64,000 nt of DNA from Microbacterium aurum (lineage in GTDB: Bacteria; Actinomycetota; Actinomycetes; Actinomycetales; Microbacteriaceae), in assembly GCF_016907815.1 (NCBI RefSeq), contig NZ_JAFBCQ010000001.1, positions 1,860,001 through 1,924,000 on the forward strand, given 5' to 3'. A model generated the notes under the pieces. The model was not told the DNA's origin, did not search any database, and saw only the letters and a list, made by a program, of their open reading frames with translations. A program made the translations under genes and the position numbers. How positions within the stretch are numbered: the stretch's first letter is position 1; every line of letters begins with the position of its first letter. Shown here one piece after another: positions 4,053 to 20,440 of the stretch.

Positions 4053-4709
4053 CTACTCCCAGCGGTAGCCCTCGCCGCGCACCGTCACGATGTGGTCGGC
4101 GCCGAGCTTCGTGCGCAGATACCGGACGTACACGTCCACGACGTTGGATCCGGGATCGAAATCGAGCCCCCAGATGCGGCTCAGCAGCTCCTCGCGGGTG
4201 AGCACCGCGCCGGGGTGGCGCAGGAACTGCTCCGCGAGGGCGAACTCCCGTGCCGACAGGTCGATCTCGCGACCCGCGACGGTCGTGCGGCGGGCGAGGA
4301 TGTCGAGGGTCACCTCGCCCTGCGTCAGGATCATCGTGATGGCGCCGGTGCGCTCCCGCAGCCGCGACCGCACGCGGGCCATGAGCTCGGCGACCGAGAA
4401 CGGCTTCGGCACGTAGTCGCTGGCCCCGGCATCCAGCCCGTCGACGGCGTCGTGGGCCGAGCTGCGCGCCGTGAGCATGATGACCGGCAGCGTCTCGCCC
4501 GCGGCGCGGAGGTGGCGCAGCACGTCGAAGCCGTCCATCGTGGGCAGGCCCACATCGAGGATCATGAGGCCGATGTCGCCGGCGAGCGCGCGGTCCAGCG
4601 CAGCCTGGCCGTCGTCCGCGTCGACGGTGTCGAAGCCCTCGGCGCGCAGCGCCCGGGTCACGAGGGAGACGATGTGCGGTTCATCGTCGACGACGAGGAT
4701 GCGGGTCAT
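4053..4709 (-). CDS. OmpR-family two-component response regulator
   Basis: A 218-residue regulator. The receiver domain has the acidic pair in ILVVDDEPH, phospho-acceptor Asp52 in MILDVGLP and the Lys in YVPKPFS. The C-terminal winged helix has the OmpR/PhoB pattern (LTREELLSRIWG, VVDVYVRYLRTKL, TVRGEGYRWE). The ATG overlaps the TGA of the upstream kinase by four bases, so the two are translationally coupled. The signal and regulon are unknown. An upstream open extension to 4835 lies inside the kinase gene and is not used. Confidence 0.93.
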   Translation of the reverse strand: MTRILVVDDEPHIVSLVTRALRAEGFDTVDADDGQAALDRALAGDIGLMILDVGLPTMDGFDVLRHLRAAGETLPVIMLTARSSAHDAVDGLDAGASDYVPKPFSVAELMARVRSRLRERTGAITMILTQGEVTLDILARRTTVAGREIDLSAREFALAEQFLRHPGAVLTREELLSRIWGLDFDPGSNVVDVYVRYLRTKLGADHIVTVRGEGYRWE

Positions 4710-5683
4710 CCAGAGGCCTCTCGCTGCAGAACGACGTCGCCGGCACGCACCGGCGTCGGGAGGGTCGCTCGGGTGCCGATCGGGATCTCCACCGTGAACG
4801 TAGCACCGCCGCCGGGGGTGTCGGCGACGATGCACCGCCCGCCGTGCGATTTCGCGATGGCATCGACGATCGCGAGCCCCAATCCCGACCCGCCGACGGT
4901 GCGGCGGCCGACGCCGCGGTCGAAGCGGCGGAAGATGCGATGGCGCATCGCGGGAGGGATGCCGGGGCCGTGATCACGCACCCACAGTTGCGCTCCGGAG
5001 GGGTACACGGCGCTGCCGAGCTCGATGGGCGTGCCGGGAGCGGTGTACTTGGCGGCGTTGTCGGCGAGCTGCAGCCACGCCTGCAGCAGCCGATCGCGGT
5101 CGCCGCGGATGACGCCCTGCGCGGTCTGTTCCACGGCCCAGTCGTGCCCTGGGATCACGGCGACCATCTCGGCGATGCGCTGCGTGAGGCCCGTGAGCTC
5201 CACGTCGCCGATCGTCAGCTGGTCGGTTTCGACGGTGGCGAGCAGATCGATGTCGCCGATGAGGCGGGTCATGCGGTCGAGTTCGGCGATGCCGAGCGCC
5301 CGGATCGCGGCGACGTCCTCGGGGTCGGTGGGATTCATCACCTCGAGGTGGCCGCGCACGATCGTGATCGGGGTCTTCAGCTCGTGCCGCACGTCGTCGA
5401 GCAGGCGCCGGTGGGCGTCGAACGACCCCTCCGCGGTGTCGGCGGCGGGGACGTCGGCGAGCAGCGTCCACCCGACGACTCCGATGACGGCGAGCGTGAT
5501 CACGGCGGATGCCGCGAACACCGCCACTCCGGCCCACGACAGCGGAAACGCGGTCAACGCGTGCAGCACGAGCAGCGCCAGCGCGGTGACCGCGAACCCC
5601 GCCGCCACGACGGCGAGCAGGAGCACCAGCGTGCGCACGCGCCGCGCCGGAACGGCCCGTGTGGTGCTGGCGGTGCGGTTCAC
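4706..5683 (-). CDS. Sensor histidine kinase
   Basis: A 325-residue membrane kinase. Two predicted helices (about residues 18-41 and 51-75) enclose only a short extracellular loop and there is no clear HAMP domain, so it is probably an intramembrane-sensing type. The H-box is DDVRHELKTPI with the phospho-accepting His at residue 100. The ATPase shows the N box (LADNAAKYT), G1 (DHGPGIP) and G2 (GGSGLGLAIV). It pairs with the response regulator downstream. The GTG start is ten bases after the fumarase stop, so it can be read from the fumarase transcript. A GGAG is too close to that GTG to be an ideal ribosome site, so the exact start is less certain. Confidence 0.9.
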   Translation of the reverse strand: MNRTASTTRAVPARRVRTLVLLLAVVAAGFAVTALALLVLHALTAFPLSWAGVAVFAASAVITLAVIGVVGWTLLADVPAADTAEGSFDAHRRLLDDVRHELKTPITIVRGHLEVMNPTDPEDVAAIRALGIAELDRMTRLIGDIDLLATVETDQLTIGDVELTGLTQRIAEMVAVIPGHDWAVEQTAQGVIRGDRDRLLQAWLQLADNAAKYTAPGTPIELGSAVYPSGAQLWVRDHGPGIPPAMRHRIFRRFDRGVGRRTVGGSGLGLAIVDAIAKSHGGRCIVADTPGGGATFTVEIPIGTRATLPTPVRAGDVVLQREASG

Positions 5684-7146: not shown

Positions 7147-7791
7147 TCAGGCGTCGAGCCCGACCATCACGTGGGGGATGGCCCGGCCCTCGCTCAGGCG
7201 GTAGTTGGCGCCCACGATGGCGAGGCGCCCGTCGGCGACAGCGTCGGAGATGAGCCGGGAGCTGGCCAGCACGTCCTCGATCGTGTTGCCGAGGTGCTCG
7301 ATGCCGACGTCCTCGGCATCGAGCGACCGCGGGTCGATGGCGTCGCTCGCGCGCAGGACGGTGCGGGCGGCGGGCACGATCTTGGCGATGAGGCGCCAGA
7401 TGTGCGGCGGGAGTTCGGGGGAGTCGATCGCCGTGGAGTCGATGGCGGCGCGCACGGCACCGCATTCGTCGTGGGCGAGGACGATGATCACCGACACGTC
7501 GAGCACCGCGACGGCGTACTCGAGGCTGGCGATCGCGGAGTCGGACGCCACCTGGCCGGCGTTGCGGACGACGAACAGGTCGCCGAGCCCCTGATCGAAG
7601 ATGATCTCCGCCGCCAGTCGCGAGTCGGAGCAGCCGAACAGCGCGGCGCGGGGGGTCTGCGTGTGTGCGAGCTCGGCGCGACGGTCGACGTCCTGACGCG
7701 GATGCCGGGGCGCGCCCGTCACGAAGCGCTCGTTGCCCTCGCGCATCTCGGCCCAGACGCTCGCGGGGGTGGGGCGCACGGCATCGGTCAT
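7147..7791 (-). CDS. Beta-carbonic anhydrase
   Basis: A 214-residue beta-class zinc carbonic anhydrase (CO2 to bicarbonate). The zinc ligands and catalytic dyad lie in [11 protein letters not shown] and in [13 protein letters not shown], and VVRNAGQ is also conserved. The role is to supply bicarbonate to carboxylases. Its ATG overlaps the TGA of the DUF4245 gene by four bases, so the two are coupled. The upstream open extension in this frame lies inside that neighbour and is not used. Confidence 0.93.
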
Positions 7792-13195: not shown

Positions 13196-14185
13196 ATGGT
13201 GAGCCTGACCGCGGACATGAGTCCTCTGCACCCTGACCGCAACCTCGCACTCGAACTGGTGCGCGCGACCGAGGCGGCGGCGATCCGCTCGGTGCCCTAC
13301 ATCGGCCGCGGTCAGAAGGAACTCGCCGACGGTGCTGCCGTCGATGCGATGCGCGCCTTCCTCACGACGGTCAACTTCGACGGCGTCATCGTCATCGGGG
13401 AGGGGGAGAAGGACAACGCGCCCATGCTGTTCAACGGCGAGCACGTCGGCACCGGGCGCGGCCCGCAGTGCGACGTCGCCGTCGACCCCATCGACGGCAC
13501 CTCACTCACCGCGGAGGGGCGCAACAACGCCCTGTCCGTGCTCGCCGTCTCGGACCGGGGCTCGATGCTCGACGCATCGAGCGTGTTCTACATGGACAAG
13601 ATCGTCACCGGCCCCGCCGGCATCGGAGTCGTCGACATCCGCCTTCCCGTCGGGGAGAACATCCGCCGCCTCGCGAAGGCGCTGAGCAAGCCCGTCGAAG
13701 AGCTTGTCGTGTCGGTGCTGAACCGGCCGCGCCACTCCCGTCTCATCGACGAGATCCGCGAAGCCGGTGCCGGAACCCGCCTGATGAGCGACGGCGATGT
13801 CGCCGGCGGCATCAACGCAGCGCGGCACAATGCCCGCACCGACATGTGCATCGGGGTGGGGGGCAGTCCGGAAGGTGTCGCCACGGCGTGCGCGATCAAG
13901 GCGCTGGGCGGTCACATCCAGGGGCGGCTGTGGCCCCGGGACGACGACGAGAAGCAGCGCGGAATCGACGCCGGACTGCGCCTGGACGACTACGTCTACG
14001 AGGCCGACGAACTCGTCACCGGCAAGAACACGATCTTCGTCGCCACCGGTGTCACCAACGGCGAGCTCGTCGGGGGCGTGCGTCGCGACGGCGACTTCGT
14101 CTACACCGAGAGCGTGGTGCTGCGCGGCGCCTCGGGGACGCTGCGGCGCATCTCCTCCGAGCACCTCACCTCGAAATGGCTGTGA
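13196..14185 (+). CDS. glpX: Class II fructose-1,6-bisphosphatase
   Basis: A 329-residue GlpX-type phosphatase that removes the 1-phosphate of fructose 1,6-bisphosphate in gluconeogenesis. The metal and substrate blocks are VIGEGEKDNAPMLF, VDPIDGTSLTAEGRNN and GGSPEGVATACAIKALGG. Actinobacteria normally rely on this class for gluconeogenesis (M. tuberculosis Rv1099c). The ATG has a leaderless-type -10 and no Shine-Dalgarno; MSPLHPDRNLALELVRATE, eight codons in, is the conserved beginning. Confidence 0.95.
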   Translation: MVSLTADMSPLHPDRNLALELVRATEAAAIRSVPYIGRGQKELADGAAVDAMRAFLTTVNFDGVIVIGEGEKDNAPMLFNGEHVGTGRGPQCDVAVDPIDGTSLTAEGRNNALSVLAVSDRGSMLDASSVFYMDKIVTGPAGIGVVDIRLPVGENIRRLAKALSKPVEELVVSVLNRPRHSRLIDEIREAGAGTRLMSDGDVAGGINAARHNARTDMCIGVGGSPEGVATACAIKALGGHIQGRLWPRDDDEKQRGIDAGLRLDDYVYEADELVTGKNTIFVATGVTNGELVGGVRRDGDFVYTESVVLRGASGTLRRISSEHLTSKWL

Positions 14186-14275
14186 CCGGCTGACGCCTTT
14201 CCCGGGGTGCCTCCAGGGACAACGAGGGGTGCGTCTGGCAGAATATGAGGCGGTGTCACCGGCGACACGTTCGCA

Positions 14276-15745
14276 TCACGCAATCCGGGGGTCACAGTGT
14301 CCGCAGCATCGAGCAGTCCGAGAACAGGGCAGATCGCGGTTCCCGTCGACCCCGCGCGGCGACCGGACGTCCTGTTGCGCCGACGCCTGCCGGAAGGCCA
14401 TCAGATCAGTGCCTGGTGGATGATCGGTGCGTTCGTGGCCGTCTCCCTCTCCGTCATCGGCCTGCTGAACTTCTTCCCCGGCGGCTGAGAGGCGATCGCG
14501 CAGCGCGCCGACATCTGCCGCGATGCCTTCCACGAGTTCGGGAGCGACGAGTTTCCTCGGCGTCTTCTCGATGACAGCCGGGGCCGCGGTCGCCTCGAGC
14601 TTCGTGTCATCGATGCCGGGGAACCGTCTCGCGCTGACGAGCACGCGCGACTCCAGCGAACCGGCAAAGCGGTTGTAGCTGTCCACCGTCCGCTCGATCG
14701 CCCGCCGCAGGTCCTCGGCGTGCGACGCGAGCCCGCCGAGGCGCTGGTACAGCTCGCTGCCGAGGTCGAACAGCCGCCGCGCCTCGGTGGAGACGTCCTG
14801 CTGCGTCCAGGTGTAGGCGACGGTCTTCAGCACCGCCCAGAGGTTCACGGGCGAGGCGAGCGCCACGCGCCGCGAGAACGCGTAGTCGAGCAGACTGGGA
14901 TCCTCCTCGAGCGCGGCGGCCAGCAGCGACTCGCTGGGGATGAAGCAGACCACGAACTCCGGGCTGGAGTCCAATCCCGTCCAGTACCGCTTGCCGGCCA
15001 GCGCGTCGACGTGGGCGCGCACGGCTTTGACGTGCTTCTGCAGCAGCTGCGCGCGTCGGGCGCCCTGTTCCCCCTGGGCGGTGAACGGAATGGCGGATGC
15101 CTCGAGATACGCATCCAGGGGAACCTTCGCGTCGACGGCGAGCGCCTTGCCGCCAGGAAGGCGCACGACGAGGTCGGGGCGACCCGCCCCGGCATCCGAG
15201 GTCAGCGTGGACTGCGTGTCGAAGTCGACGTAGCGGGTGAGTCCTGCCGATTCCACGACCCGGCGCAGCTGCGTCTCGCCCCAGACGCCGCGCGTCGCGT
15301 TGGAGCGCAGCGCCCCGGCGAGCGACTCGGTGGTCGCGCGCAGCGCCTCGTCCGCCTCGTGGGAGCGACGCAGCTGCTCGGCGAGCGAGCCGTACTGGGT
15401 CTGTCGCTCGCGCTCGAGCTCGTCGACCTTGTGCTGCATCGACTGCAGCGACTCCTGGACCGGCGCCAGCGCCCGCAGGACGAGCTGCTCGCGGCGATCG
15501 CGCTCCTGCTGGGCGAGCTGCTCCGCACGCGACTGCGCGCCGAGCTCGCGGGTGAGGGAGCGCTGCTGCTCGAGCTGGTCGGCGAGCGAGCGCGCAGAGG
15601 CGTCGGCGGCGGCCACGCGCGCGACGAGGTCGGCGCGCTCACGCGCGGCGCGCTCGGACGCGCGGGCCGCGCCGGCGAACCAGCCGGCCAGCAGGCCGGC
15701 GAACAGGCTCGCGACGACGAGGGCGGTGACGATGACGGCATCCAT
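14276..15745 (-). CDS. rmuC: DNA recombination protein RmuC
   Basis: A 489-residue protein: an N-terminal membrane anchor (VIVTALVVASLFAGLLAGWFAG), a long coiled coil (about residues 30-150), then the RmuC nuclease-like domain (NATRGVWGETQL, GRPDLVVRLPGGKALAVDAKVPLDAYLEA). RmuC restrains rearrangement at inverted repeats. The conserved domain ends near the segment TPRKLVAPEL at about 14541-14570. The remaining 88 or so codons are unlike the family and are antisense to the small membrane protein, so the end is probably a run-on after loss of a stop. The ATG at 15745 gives the normal anchor. Confidence 0.88.
   Translation of the reverse strand: MDAVIVTALVVASLFAGLLAGWFAGAARASERAARERADLVARVAAADASARSLADQLEQQRSLTRELGAQSRAEQLAQQERDRREQLVLRALAPVQESLQSMQHKVDELERERQTQYGSLAEQLRRSHEADEALRATTESLAGALRSNATRGVWGETQLRRVVESAGLTRYVDFDTQSTLTSDAGAGRPDLVVRLPGGKALAVDAKVPLDAYLEASAIPFTAQGEQGARRAQLLQKHVKAVRAHVDALAGKRYWTGLDSSPEFVVCFIPSESLLAAALEEDPSLLDYAFSRRVALASPVNLWAVLKTVAYTWTQQDVSTEARRLFDLGSELYQRLGGLASHAEDLRRAIERTVDSYNRFAGSLESRVLVSARRFPGIDDTKLEATAAPAVIEKTPRKLVAPELVEGIAADVGALRDRLSAAGEEVQQADDGEGDGHERTDHPPGTDLMAFRQASAQQDVRSPRGVDGNRDLPCSRTARCCGHCDPRIA
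14297..14488 (+). CDS. Small membrane protein antisense to the rmuC 3' end
   Basis: A 63-residue protein with a polar N-terminus and one C-terminal membrane helix (WWMIGAFVAVSLSVIGLLNFF). I do not recognise a family. The start is GTG with a GGGG run about five bases upstream. The whole gene lies on the strand opposite the last part of rmuC, whose frame has lost its expected stop and runs through it. The clear hydrophobic helix on this strand, against a low-complexity basic/polar tail on the other, supports this as the genuine product. Confidence 0.55.
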   Translation: MSAASSSPRTGQIAVPVDPARRPDVLLRRRLPEGHQISAWWMIGAFVAVSLSVIGLLNFFPGG

Positions 15746-17415: not shown

Positions 17416-17426
17416 TCGCAGCCACG

Positions 17427-17432
17427 TAGACT
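17427..17432 (+). promoter_or_regulatory. -10 element TAGACT for ychF
   Basis: TAGACT followed by eight bases and the GTG at 17441; the transcript would begin at or within two bases of the start codon. Confidence 0.45.
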
Positions 17433-17440
17433 GATATCCC

Positions 17441-18511
17441 GTGGCTCTTACCATCGGAATCGTGGGTCTTCCCAACGTCGGCAAGTCGACCCTGTTCAAC
17501 GCGCTGACCAAGAACGAGGTGCTCGCGGCGAACTATCCGTTCGCGACGATCGAGCCGAACGTCGGCGTCGTGAACCTGCCCGACGAGCGGCTGACCAAGC
17601 TCGCGGAGATCTTCCACTCCGATCGGATCCTCCCGGCTCCGGTCTCGTTCGTCGACATTGCCGGCATCGTGCGCGGCGCGAGCGAGGGCGAGGGGCTCGG
17701 CAACAAGTTCCTCGCGAACATCCGCGAGGCCGACGCGATCGCGCAGGTCGTGCGCGGCTTCGCCGATGACGACGTCGTGCACGTCGACGGCAAGGTCGAC
17801 CCGGCATCCGACATGGAGACCATCAACGCCGAGTTGCAGCTGGCCGACCTCGAGACGCTGGAGAAGGCGATCACGCGCTACGAGAAGGAGGTGCGCGGCC
17901 GCAAGCTCGACCCCTCGGTGCTCGCCACGGCCGAGGCGGCGCGTGACGCGCTGCAGCGGGGTGAGCTGCTCTCGGCATCCGGCCTCGATCTCGCGCCGAT
18001 CAAGGAGCTCGGCCTGCTCACGGCCAAGCCGTTCATCTTCGTCTTCAACGTCGACGAGGCGGTGCTGACGGATGCCGCGCGCAAGGCGGCGCTGGCGGAG
18101 CTCGTCGCCCCCGCGAAAGCCGTCTTCCTCGACGCGAAGATCGAGTCCGAGCTCATCGACCTCGATCCGGAGGATGCCGCGGAGTTGCTCGCCTCGACCG
18201 GTCAGGACGAGTCCGGGCTCGACCAGCTCGCCCGCATCGGGTTCGACACGCTGGGCCTGCAGACCTACCTCACCGCCGGGCCGAAGGAAGCGCGGGCGTG
18301 GACGATCGGGAAGGGCTGGAAGGCTCCCCAGGCGGCCGGCGTCATCCACACCGACTTCGAGAAGGGCTTCATCAAGGCCGAGGTCATCTCGTTCGACGAC
18401 CTCGTGGAGACTGGATCCGTCGCCGCGGCGCGCGCCGCCGGCAAGGCACGCCTGGAGGGCAAGGACTACATCATGCAGGACGGCGACGTGGTGGAGTTCC
18501 GCCACAGTTAG
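17441..18511 (+). CDS. ychF: Redox-regulated ATPase YchF (Obg family) with altered C-terminus
   Basis: A 356-residue YchF/OLA1 P-loop NTPase that binds ribosomes. P-loop GLPNVGKST (residues 9-17), switch region DIAGIVRGASEGEGLGNKF, then a coiled coil and a C-terminal TGS domain. Family members almost always end in FRFNV; this one ends GDVVEFRHS. The expected ending GDVVEFRFNV plus stop is found intact about 0.8 kb downstream at 19301-19333, beyond an HNH gene. The natural reading is that an element entered the 3' end and replaced the last few codons. The TGS domain is otherwise complete, so the protein is probably functional. Confidence 0.93.
   Translation: MALTIGIVGLPNVGKSTLFNALTKNEVLAANYPFATIEPNVGVVNLPDERLTKLAEIFHSDRILPAPVSFVDIAGIVRGASEGEGLGNKFLANIREADAIAQVVRGFADDDVVHVDGKVDPASDMETINAELQLADLETLEKAITRYEKEVRGRKLDPSVLATAEAARDALQRGELLSASGLDLAPIKELGLLTAKPFIFVFNVDEAVLTDAARKAALAELVAPAKAVFLDAKIESELIDLDPEDAAELLASTGQDESGLDQLARIGFDTLGLQTYLTAGPKEARAWTIGKGWKAPQAAGVIHTDFEKGFIKAEVISFDDLVETGSVAAARAAGKARLEGKDYIMQDGDVVEFRHS
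18479..18502 (+). repeat. Left copy of 24-bp ychF 3'-end repeat
   Basis: A 24-base segment encoding DGDVVEFR within ychF. It matches 19298-19321 at 23 of 24 positions (the mismatch is G/C at the twelfth base). The two copies bracket the HNH gene like element attachment or target-repair ends. Confidence 0.8.
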
Positions 18512-19321
18512 GTATCAGGAGATCCCGATAATGCAAGACATTCCGCGCCGACCTCCCGCTGATGTACGGCGGCAATTGCGGCGTGAAGTCGGCTTCGGCT
18601 GCCCCGTGGTCGGGTGCGGGAATCCCTACCTCGAGTATCACCACTTCGATCCACCCTGGCATGAAGGCCCGCATCACAATCCAGCCGGGATGCTCGCCCT
18701 TTGTGCGACTCACCACGCGAAGGCCGATGCTCTGACCGCCGAGCAATGTCGAGAGCTCAAGGCGAAGCCGCAATCTTCTACCGTGCGCGGTCGGTTCGAG
18801 TGGATGCGACGTGAGGTCGTCGCGATTGTGGGCGGCAATTACTATCACGAGACCCCTCACATGGTCGTCTTTCGTGGCGCGCCGCTGATCTGGTTTGAGC
18901 GCGATGAGGAGGGCTACCTTCTCCTCAGCATGCGGATGCTAACGACATCGCACGAGGGCCGCGCTCAACTCCTCGCGAATGACTGGGATATCGCGGGTGA
19001 CCCGTCAGATGTCGAGAGCCCGCCGAACGGGAGCTATCTTCGCGTGCGCTACCCGAACGGCGATGATGTTCAGGTCCAGTTTCGGCAGTGGGATTCGGCG
19101 GAGAGCCTGGCCCTCAAGCACCCGAGAATCCTCGTTCTTGGGGACGAGATTTCCTATCCGCTCGTGACCGTTGAGATTGCCATGGTCGTTGGCGGCACAG
19201 ACGTCCGGTTCGACGCGCGGTCGAGCGCAATCGGCGGACTAACCATGACCGGCAGCGTGATGAGTCGGTGCGGGGCGGGACTTGTGATCGGTTGATTGAC
19301 GGCGACGTCGTGGAGTTCCGC
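18503..19321 (+). mobile_element. Putative HNH homing element inserted in the ychF 3' end
   Basis: About 0.8 kb lies between two near-identical 24-bp pieces of the ychF 3' end. It has one gene, an HNH nuclease, no transposase or integrase, and no terminal inverted repeats that I can see. Base composition inside is visibly less GC-rich than the flanks. The left copy leaves ychF with a workable end; the right copy is the stranded original end. This fits a free-standing homing endonuclease gene or a small cassette that re-creates its host gene end. The mechanism is inference. Confidence 0.6.
18531..19295 (+). CDS. HNH endonuclease domain protein
   Basis: A 254-residue protein. The N-terminal 70 residues form a zinc-bound HNH motif: CPVVGC (Cys24, Cys29), YHHF (His37-38), HNPAGM (Asn50), LCATHH (Cys58, His61-62). 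The remaining 180 residues have a predicted beta-rich make-up with no family I recognise and may be the DNA-recognition part. The ATG has AGGAG nine bases upstream. Codon use is less G/C-ended than in neighbours. It starts 19 bases after the ychF stop and sits between two copies of the ychF end, so it is the best candidate for the activity that moved the element. Confidence 0.75.
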   Translation: MQDIPRRPPADVRRQLRREVGFGCPVVGCGNPYLEYHHFDPPWHEGPHHNPAGMLALCATHHAKADALTAEQCRELKAKPQSSTVRGRFEWMRREVVAIVGGNYYHETPHMVVFRGAPLIWFERDEEGYLLLSMRMLTTSHEGRAQLLANDWDIAGDPSDVESPPNGSYLRVRYPNGDDVQVQFRQWDSAESLALKHPRILVLGDEISYPLVTVEIAMVVGGTDVRFDARSSAIGGLTMTGSVMSRCGAGLVIG

Positions 19322-19333
19322 TTCAACGTGTAG
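19298..19333 (+). pseudogene. Orphaned original 3' end of ychF
   Basis: These bases encode DGDVVEFRFNV followed by TAG, the canonical YchF C-terminus, with no start codon of their own. The first 24 bases repeat 18479-18502. It is a displaced fragment left behind by the insertion. Confidence 0.75.
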
Positions 19334-19342
19334 CGCGGGTGC

Positions 19343-19348
19343 TACGAT
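19343..19348 (+). promoter_or_regulatory. -10 element TACGAT for antitoxin gene
   Basis: TACGAT followed by seven bases and the ATG at 19356; leaderless-type. Confidence 0.45.
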
Positions 19349-19355
19349 CGTGCTC

Positions 19356-19637
19356 ATGAGTGCAGGCGAGCCGCAGATCGAGAGCCTGTCGCAGCGCGAG
19401 TTGCGCAACGAGTCCGGGCGCGTGCTTCGGGAGGTGGGCGAGGGGCATTCGTTCGTGCTGACGAACCGCGGAATTCCCGTCGGCCGTATCGTCCCCCTCG
19501 ATGCGCCGAGCCCCACGTTGCCGATCGTTCGTCATGCGAAGCGCGTCGGTGGCTGGGCTGCGCTGAAGCCGGCGGGAGCCGAAAACGACCGCCCAATGAC
19601 TCAGATCATCGATGAGCTACGTGAGGACCGCGCGTGA
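19356..19637 (+). CDS. Type II antitoxin, Phd/YefM family
   Basis: A 93-residue antitoxin. The N-terminal DNA-binding region SLSQRELRNESGRVLREV and FVLTNRGIPVGRIVPL are typical of Phd/YefM proteins, which bind the toxin and repress their own operon. It overlaps the toxin gene by four bases (GTGA). The in-frame open stretch upstream belongs to the displaced ychF end. An autorepression operator is expected at the promoter but was not resolved. Confidence 0.85.
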   Translation: MSAGEPQIESLSQRELRNESGRVLREVGEGHSFVLTNRGIPVGRIVPLDAPSPTLPIVRHAKRVGGWAALKPAGAENDRPMTQIIDELREDRA

Positions 19638-20065
19638 GCGGTGTTCCGCTCGTCTATGCCGACACGTCTGCGCTCGGAGCGCTGCTCGTCCTGCAGCCGG
19701 AAACGCGAGCCCTGCTGGATTGGCTCGATCAGACGCGCGCCAGGCTCGTCTCAAGCGATCTGCTCGAAACCGAACTGCGTCGCATGGCAGTGCGGGAAGG
19801 GCGGGATCAAGCGAAGGTCAGCGCGATCCTCGATGGCGTGTCGCTCGCGGCGCTCGACCGAGCAACGTACCGATCCGCCGGGTTCTTGCCGATGCCGTAC
19901 CTACGCACCCTCGACGCCTTGCATCTCGAGGCGGCGATTCGCCTGGATGTCGACGCCATCCTCACGTACGACAAGCGGCTCGGCGACTCTGCGGGTGAGG
20001 TAGGGCTCGACGTGATCGCGCCCGGCCCGTTGGATACGGGCGTGGCCCGTCGGGGCGATGCATGA
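19634..20065 (+). CDS. VapC-type PIN-domain toxin
   Basis: A 143-residue PIN ribonuclease. The acidic active-site residues are seen in YADTSALGALL, LETELRRMA, RTLDALHLEAAI and ILTYDKRL. VapC toxins cut tRNA or rRNA and are held inactive by the partner antitoxin. The GTG overlaps the antitoxin stop and its own TGA overlaps the next ATG, so antitoxin, toxin and NUDIX genes are coupled. VapC is here paired with a Phd/YefM-type rather than a VapB antitoxin, a known mixed arrangement. Confidence 0.88.
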   Translation: MSGVPLVYADTSALGALLVLQPETRALLDWLDQTRARLVSSDLLETELRRMAVREGRDQAKVSAILDGVSLAALDRATYRSAGFLPMPYLRTLDALHLEAAIRLDVDAILTYDKRLGDSAGEVGLDVIAPGPLDTGVARRGDA

Positions 20066-20361
20066 GCGGCGGTCCGGAACGCAGGCCCGTTCGGAAGGTC
20101 GTCGGAGATGTCGTGCATGACGACCAGCTCCTTGTGTTCACGCACGACGGCGTGCCGCTCGACGTGGCGGGTGTTCAGGTGCCAGCGGGGACGATCGAGC
20201 AGAGCGAGACGCCGGCGGCTGCCGTCGTACGTGAGGTCCTGGAGGAGACCGGACTTGCCGTTCGCATCGTGCACGCACTCGGCGTTGAACGATACGACGT
20301 CTGGCCCTCGAAGCCGGAAGTGCACGAGAGGCACTTTCTCCAGTTCCGCGTCAACGTCTGA
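20062..20361 (+). CDS. NUDIX hydrolase, short and probably truncated
   Basis: Ninety-nine residues with a complete Nudix box: Gly43, Glu49, Arg57-Glu58, Glu61-Glu62 and Gly64 (GTIEQSETPAAAVVREVLEE then TGL). The fold normally needs 130-150 residues; here it stops soon after the box, and the following sequence looks decayed. The ATG overlaps the toxin stop by four bases. It may be a working minimal pyrophosphatase or the surviving front of a broken gene; I favour the latter. Confidence 0.65.
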   Translation: MSGGPERRPVRKVVGDVVHDDQLLVFTHDGVPLDVAGVQVPAGTIEQSETPAAAVVREVLEETGLAVRIVHALGVERYDVWPSKPEVHERHFLQFRVNV

Positions 20362-20440
20362 TGACCACGTCCACATCCTCCTCCTCAAGGTGAGAGGCTT
20401 GGACGCGTTCGACCCGGTCGGAGTCCCGCGACCCTGACCC

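Follow-up and report, generated by a model that had tools for sequence, protein, structure and literature searches.

A probable integron-like cassette array at the 3' end of ychF in Microbacterium aurum

The ychF locus and its HNH cassette

The window analysed here, 64,000 nucleotides of the Microbacterium aurum genome (contig NZ_JAFBCQ010000001.1, positions 1,860,001 to 1,924,000), contains a ychF gene followed by a gene for an HNH-like protein, which lies between two copies of the ychF 3' end. These 24-bp copies (18479-18502 and 19298-19321) are equal at 23 of 24 bases. The YchF translation ends with EFRHS, and the ending GDVVEFRFNV, with its stop codon, is encoded by the downstream copy. 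Between the repeats there is no sizeable gene besides that of the HNH-like protein, and no recombinase gene is found in this unit or in the window's cassettes. The G+C content of the unit is 61.5%, against 70.0% for the window. All of these features, from the two endings and the single mismatch to the lone gene of lower G+C content, had been reported in an initial annotation of the letters, and they hold.

The first site (Table 1) is composed of a left half belonging to ychF, a crossover triplet GGT at 18490-18492, and a right half, GGAGTTCCGCCACAGTTAGGTAT, which is also present in L121, L241, G081, and G720 (genomes are designated by G numbers, loci and contigs by L numbers). In this reading, the last ychF codons (E-F-R-H-S-stop) come from the inserted cassette, and the second site is presumably the former right half of the ychF end. 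A probe for the canonical ychF end matches once in the window, versus 0.00 matches expected in shuffled sequences, and a 1,001-bp query of the locus has a single match in the 3.41-Mb genome. No Rfam RNA is found at the junction.

An empty site is provided by G018. Positions 17421-18502 of the window align to the G018 ychF up to position 2032 (87% identity), and positions 19298-20029 align from position 2009 onwards (76% identity). Both alignments overlap by exactly the 24-bp repeat (2009-2032), which makes the HNH unit an insertion of 819 bp, placed exactly between two site copies. The ychF gene of G018 has the FRFNV ending and is directly followed by the Phd-VapC pair that, in the window, comes after the HNH gene. 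The proposal of the initial annotation that the unit targets the ychF 3' end in a site-specific manner and supplies a new in-frame ending is supported, and a relative devoid of the HNH gene has a single ychF end.

Table 1. Features of the ychF locus in the window
Feature	Position	Strand	Remarks
ychF	17441..18511	+	GTG start; TIGR00092, 430 bits; translation ends GDVVEFRHS
First recombination site, attL-like	18459..18526	+	Site model, 32.6 bits over 18459-18502
HNH cassette, GT to GT	18493..19311	+	819 bp; repeat spacing 819; empty site in G018
HNH-like protein gene, cargo	18531..19295	+	254 aa; phrog_6544 over nearly the whole length
Second site, ychF-end copy with FRFNV ending	19298..19334	+	Triplet CGT at 19309-19311; site model, 34.8 bits; 23/24 repeat
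Phd/YefM-type antitoxin gene, next cassette	19356..19637	+	TIGR01552, 28.5 bits; directly 3' of ychF in G018
PIN/VapC-type toxin gene	19634..20065	+	PF01850, 44.6 bits
Nudix-domain open reading frame (ORF)	20062..20361	+	99 aa; C-terminus LQFRVNV; PF00293, 44.1 bits
Possible third site, degenerate, uncertain	20342..20362	+	11.6 bits, E 0.009

Distribution of the ychF-end sites

Of 119 Microbacterium genomes, 118 contain a match to the last 123 bases of ychF, and second, short copies lie downstream in G005, G048, G118, and G034. Five further copies are present in G005, with small genes between them, and four of these five pass the site model described hereafter. In 60 Microbacterium genomes picked by assembly quality, blind to the sites, ~9 kb downstream of ychF was fetched; the four genomes with second copies are outside this sample, and 20 stretches from genomes with strict site matches were added later. 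The site model is a 60-base profile that started from 34 strict sites and was then refined by iteration with plus-strand matches of the same loci, of which it is not independent. It was applied to 82 loci, made up of 58 of the 60, four further loci, the window, and 19 strict-match stretches (two having been merged).

At 14 bits or more, the model yields 178 matches on the ychF strand of these 82 loci and none on the other strand, in shuffled sequences, or in reversed sequences; at 8 bits, the corresponding numbers are 197, 4, 3, and 1. Roughly 80 of the 178 matches are the ychF ends themselves, and parsing leaves 88 array sites, in 39 loci, plus 76 ychF ends. Scans with the plain 18-base core discriminate worse than the model (42 extra matches on the ychF strand, seven on the other, and nine in shuffles), and the 17-base core gives 58, 14, and seven matches, respectively. 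Extra sites are found in 16 of the 60 Microbacterium loci, two loci dropped by the parser having been rescanned, and the longest run reaches 12 sites over 17 kb in G147 (L237). In these arrays, cassettes follow each other head to tail, a site akin to the ychF end closes each of them, and the sites are unidirectional. The controls give good support to the ychF-end cassette arrays. A convergent pair at 3976-3995 of L319, a locus outside the 82-locus set, holds the only inverted strong site observed in ychF-associated loci. Besides, a motif like CCCGGTCGTTGAGCGAGCG, resembling a repetitive extragenic palindromic (REP)-type repeat, lies just behind ychF or array sites in L119, L120, L134, L142, and L175.

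With at most one mismatch, the strict pattern CGKAACYCGGTGGAGTTCCGSTTYAAC occurs at 35 sites among 295 Microbacterium genomes, 28 of which have at least one, and the reversed pattern occurs at none. These sites are located downstream of ychF, on the same strand and up to ~22.5 kb away, in 26 of the 28 genomes, ychF not being placed in G174 and G150. In a sample of the phylum searched with two mismatches, three of 396 genomes match: one Microbacterium and two members of another family of the same class (L224 and L225), in which ychF is present with a further site. Within the family, an exact core match is found in 114 of 199 genomes, ychF itself included, and at least two core matches on one contig within 10 kb are found in 13 genomes (12 other genera of the family). 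All of these 13 possess sites of at least 14 bits besides ychF; for L307 (G706), ychF lies farther upstream, in L361. In Nocardia farcinica NCTC11134 (L384), ychF ends with EFRHS and is followed by four sites above 20 bits. In viral contigs, the exact half-site pattern occurs in seven stretches. Five of these stretches, in virus contigs L376, L377, L379, L380, and L381, have the common motif TACCGTAACCCGGTGGAGTTCGG at 14.9-15.3 bits, just over the cut-off; they are probably chance or coding matches, and 14 bits is therefore an unsafe cut-off for preselected sequences.

Cassette size, cargo, and mobility

Cassettes are generally small. Across the 83 intervals that separate neighbouring sites, lengths range from 120 to 18,148 bp, with a median of 1,180 bp, and 60 intervals do not exceed 2 kb. 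According to heuristic gene calls, 34 of the 83 contain a single predicted gene, on the site strand in 24 cases and on the opposite strand in 10. The cargo was scanned for 118 of the 148 proteins predicted in 19 arrays. Among the Pfam matches listed, the commonest are HTH_3 (8), HigB-like toxin (5), and glyoxalase (5), followed by RibD_C, short-chain dehydrogenases, acetyltransferases, TetR, and HTH_19 (3 each); neither Phage_integrase nor Resolvase is among the first 25 of 110 Pfam families. For the same proteins, the 25 PADLOC families listed are restriction-modification models, and a type I restriction-modification system occupies the first interval behind ychF in L230 and L232, both from Microbacterium. 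Altogether, the cargo includes toxin-antitoxin, glyoxalase, acetyltransferase, and restriction genes. The cassette inserted next to ychF supplies its last half-dozen codons, which encode EFRFNV, EFRFNN, EFRFSN, or EFRHS, so that ychF stays open. The 88 array sites have the consensus ..gt...tc.gtg.cG.aAc.cGGTGGAGTTCCGcTTcAAC and show modest folding, with mean z-scores of -1.00 and -1.04 on the two strands, against +0.15 and +0.51 for the ychF ends.

The same cassettes are found in varied order and in varied genera, with their ends at the sites. The first cassette of L229 is the third of L237 (97.7% over 3,777 bp), the second of L231 is the eighth of L237 (96.7%), the second of L087 is the first of L245 (91.6%), and one cassette of L234 is present twice, in tandem (99.9%). 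Alignments reaching 150 bp and 75% identity number 647, most of which reflect ordinary chromosomal similarity; 609 start off-site in both partners and 18 on-site in one. Those starting at a site in both partners are in register in 19 cases and out of register in one (L239/L244). N. farcinica provides the strongest case: positions 13713-15033 of its locus L384 share 99.77% identity with Microbacterium G038 over 1,321 bp; the other array matches between these two range from 69 to 85% identity, and the transfer of this cassette is apparently recent.

The ends of the latter cassette also delimit the crossover. At the left ends, agreement between Nocardia and Microbacterium begins at GGTGGAG; at the right ends, it extends through CGGAACTCGGT, is interrupted by C versus G, and is clearly lost after GAGT. 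This places the crossover within GGT, at the centre of the inverted repeat CGGAACTC-GGTG-GAGTTCCG.

Recombinases at ychF-type sites

Relatives of the serine recombinase of virus contig L365 are found in 46 of 197 genomes. This contig, which we read from its ORFs as an actinophage, carries a large serine recombinase (PF00239, PF07508) starting 26 bp from a 19.6-bit site. Its three best further matches among the fetched loci are L295/G825, L073/G081, and L288/G720, all of which had been fetched by their ychF-end match. In G081, the serine recombinase comes directly after ychF, which ends with EFRHS, and begins 44 bases past the first base of GTGGAG. In G720, an element of ~12.8 kb has its left end in ychF, again ending with EFRHS, and harbors a large serine recombinase at its far end, ~18 bases from a site with a native FRFNN half; by sequence, both ends share the core. 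The recombinase of G825 lies beside a site on a contig that stops before ychF. A single end is seen for the elements of G081, G825, and L365. G081, G720, L121, and L241 have the half-site GGAGTTCCGYCACAGTTAGGYAT in common with the window's HNH cassette, where it forms the 5' half-site. The resulting link between serine recombinases and cassettes is circumstantial.

Behind ychF of L155 (G083), an element of ~6-7 kb encodes a small serine recombinase, along with a protein of 594 aa that matches Phage_integrase marginally. This serine recombinase was dropped as a crossover clue, because the locus has two possible right ends.

Tyrosine integrases are also encountered at the ychF 3' end. In a search of 198 genomes, the integrase of G085 (the query genome) and its closest relatives, in G070 (91%) and G082 (64%), all adjoin ychF, and the far ends of their elements, 5 to 13 kb away, are partial ychF-end repeats. 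What these repeats have in common starts only at (GT)TCCGCTTCAAC and runs to the right, which places the crossover of the tyrosine elements to the right of the cassettes' GGT. The remaining 20 of the 23 positive genomes possess tyrosine relatives of at most 52% identity. The tyrosine integrases beside the ychF 3' end, in elements of ~5 to 13 kb (L143, L132, and G082:C4:342764-343837), are of one clade, and the L143 recombinase is phage-type. Recombinase queries against 102 regions match only L132, L143, and L155, and absences elsewhere are weak: a catalytic motif is found in 27 of 60 tyrosine queries, the others being perhaps wrongly extracted, and minus-strand loci were not reoriented. No Phage_integrase is found within 100 kb of ychF in five genomes. 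Integrase P0123 has no match in named phages at 1e-30, and one distant match in plasmids. In virus contig L365 (4001-6561), a tyrosine integrase (a 67% relative whose frame is split into two parts) and the large serine recombinase flank a single cassette-type site.

A further case is that of MulchRoom, a Streptomyces satellite phage (OQ784832.1, L383). At 7338-7379, it carries a 42-bp ychF-end copy that encodes MQDGDVVEFRFNV and a stop codon and lies ~68 bp from the start of its tyrosine integrase gene. This copy is likely an attP, implying integration at the Streptomyces ychF.

The HNH-like protein and its relatives

The HNH-like protein matches phrog_6544 over residues 4-253. The initial annotation had named it a zinc HNH nuclease: the single 254-aa gene stands, and the nuclease identity is less secure, the matches to HNH families being weak (at best E 5.6e-6 for the HNH families of PHROG, and E 0.82, below cut-off, for Pfam HNH_2). 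The protein has no PADLOC match. A search yields 562 relatives, of which 120 are listed. Matches are found in 11 of 295 Microbacterium genomes and are full-length in three, the window's own and two others at 40-43% identity; the other eight matches are weak, and among the full-length genes only the window's adjoins ychF. Among the 44 loci fetched for these relatives (two from Microbacterium, plus 33 and nine from further searches; 39 distinct), none contains ychF. The only one with strong sites is the 4.9-kb Kocuria carniphila contig L013, in which sites of 33.5 and 16.0 bits flank the HNH gene; ychF is not on the contig. In the 82 Microbacterium regions, 20 regions of other genera, and the Nocardia stretch, the HNH protein is found in the window only, and many of the HNH-free regions carry cassettes at the ychF site. 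The idea that the HNH protein is itself the targeting enzyme, with homologues residing beside ychF, is not supported by these results.

Relatives are also found in two phage and four plasmid records. Arthrobacter plasmid pA2H1 (L382), a small plasmid typed as mobilizable, carries at 4708-5472 a 66.5% identical HNH gene and no ychF-type site.

Interpretation of the arrays

The HNH gene is probably the cargo of an integron-like array at the ychF 3' end, whose recombinase-less cassettes would be moved in trans by serine recombinases that target ychF. Cassettes would move as small circles encoding no recombinase, and the large serine recombinases of ychF-targeting integrative elements would insert them in trans. 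Serine integrases use a 2-bp exchange core, which fits GGT; here, GT would be this core and would fix the orientation of the cassettes. The HNH protein would be carried as a passenger and might be a defence or toxin-like nuclease, comparable to the restriction and toxin-antitoxin genes of other cassettes. Live cassette movement and the identity of the recombinase are what we infer from these comparisons. A wider proposal, for which we consider the chances to be even, is that actinobacteria possess a second, integron-independent cassette platform, in which the 3' end of ychF, a widespread gene, is an anchor restored by each cassette, serine recombinases capture and shuffle the cassettes, and cassettes cross orders.

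Several observations weigh against the involvement of serine recombinases or the crossover as placed above. The right side of the crossover rests on one base, and if this base is a point mutation, the interval becomes GGTGGAGT. No excised circle is seen. Among the 46 genomes with serine recombinase relatives, the place of ychF is known in 32, and the recombinase is beside it only in G081, the best match. The window's cassettes, that of the HNH gene included, are devoid of recombinase. The genome of G043, with an array longer than 14 kb, has only two tyrosine recombinases above cut-off, presumed to be Xer (serine recombinases were not searched), and the array genome G004 has one partial resolvase match (25.6 bits) and five tyrosine recombinase matches. 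The enzyme accordingly either works in trans or has been lost. The array genomes were not found to share any resident tyrosine or serine recombinase, an absence that is weak where the ORF extraction was crude. Finally, serine integrases normally join attB to attP, and the joined cassette ends look like attL-/attR-type hybrids rather than plain attP.

The same arrays might instead have their cassettes moved by phage-type tyrosine integrases targeting the ychF 3' end. The integrases beside ychF in G085, G070, and G082, whose elements end in partial ychF-end repeats and which also count against the serine recombinases, the ychF-end copy of MulchRoom near its integrase gene, and the 67% relative next to the site of L365 all point in this direction. 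However, the repeats of the tyrosine elements start at (GT)TCCGCTTCAAC, which puts their crossover to the right of the cassettes' GGT, the other 20 of 23 positive genomes offer only distant relatives, and the G043 array genome has no tyrosine recombinase above cut-off beyond the presumed Xer pair. We hold this explanation to be unlikely, if worth keeping in mind. The presumed Xer pair of G043 brings up a dif-module-like, Xer-dependent system, which the single-gene and toxin-antitoxin modules resemble; it is very improbable, since the sites are unlike the known dif consensus and are direct, 178 to 0, the one convergent pair (L319) being outside the set, whereas dif modules alternate.

A free-standing HNH homing endonuclease, cutting an uninterrupted ychF end and copied in by repair, would account for the existence of occupied and empty sites and for a conserved target. 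Its relatives, however, are not tied to ychF (0 of 44 loci), the full-length gene is found in three of 295 Microbacterium genomes and beside ychF only in the window, other cassettes use the ychF site without it, and homing does not explain cassettes with common ends in a different order; we give it little credence, hardly more than the Xer-dependent system. A last alternative, in which the ychF end was duplicated by chance or the gene was gained through homologous recombination, with no site-specific mobility, is simple, and the window by itself shows one repeat. It is the most improbable of all, being contradicted by the one-sided site counts (178 to 0), by cassettes that recur with common ends at different positions and in several genera, and by a cassette that is 99.8% identical between two orders.

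Comparison with known systems

The initial annotation knew of no described system that targets ychF. This was too strong, as a pneumococcal prophage attB is reported just upstream of ychF (PMC6375853, PMC8637289). It lies at the opposite end of the gene, and its sequence is unrelated to that of the cassette sites. No description of ychF-end cassette arrays was found in the literature, a weak absence, the search covering open-licence papers. The MulchRoom satellite phage is similar in having the 42-bp ychF 3' end close to the gene of a tyrosine integrase, and differs in being a 14.8-kb phage satellite; attP, attB, and ychF have no mention in the main text of the paper describing it (PMC10690885).

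The dif (pdif) modules of Acinetobacter are likewise devoid of recombinase, contain one or a few genes, often toxin-antitoxin, and are reshuffled between sites. They differ by their XerC/XerD sites, located on plasmids, whereas the repeats here are direct, related to the ychF end, and chromosomal. Sites of dif modules are in alternating orientation, which is not observed here (178 direct and 0 inverted in 82 loci). Cis-mobilizable elements (CIMEs), and tandem accretion at the att site of integrative and conjugative elements (ICEs) or of the staphylococcal cassette chromosome (SCC), also involve recombinase-less, att-bounded elements in tandem at a gene 3' end. The HNH cassette has such att-type bounds and the GGAGTTCCGYCACAGTTAGGYAT half-site common with the serine-recombinase elements, and trans mobilisation would complete the likeness. 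In contrast, ychF units are mostly no longer than 2 kb (60 of 83), form runs of up to 11 (L237), and are shared between genera. Elements of large serine integrases are represented at ychF by G720, with its left end in ychF, a native half at its right end, and the recombinase beside the latter. Cassettes, unlike these elements, encode no integrase, and their joined ends are hybrid-like, not attP.

Integrons are regarded as the main bacterial cassette-capture system. A parallel system with similar cargo, found in roughly one in four of the sampled Microbacterium loci, would, if true, add a so far unlisted gene-flow route to those of a large phylum. The variable YchF C-termini would be accounted for as well, and the system would give borders to many orphan genes and offer a small-circle capture chemistry amenable to testing. 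The ychF arrays resemble integrons in their small cassettes arranged head to tail, with one site orientation, a fixed anchor, a varied order, and toxin-antitoxin or other small cargo. They depart from them in that no integron integrase is found at ychF arrays, the candidate enzyme being a serine recombinase, and in that the arrays are anchored in the coding end of a housekeeping gene. The attC sites of integrons have the consensus RYYYAAC..GTTRRRY and form a strong hairpin. An identity of the array sites with attC was considered and rejected, their outer motifs being GTTG..CAAC and their folding modest. As a separate observation, an HNH relative of Aliivibrio (L029, 2332-3510) lies between repeats resembling Vibrio integron sites, which we take to be attC, and this protein family may thus travel in true integrons too.

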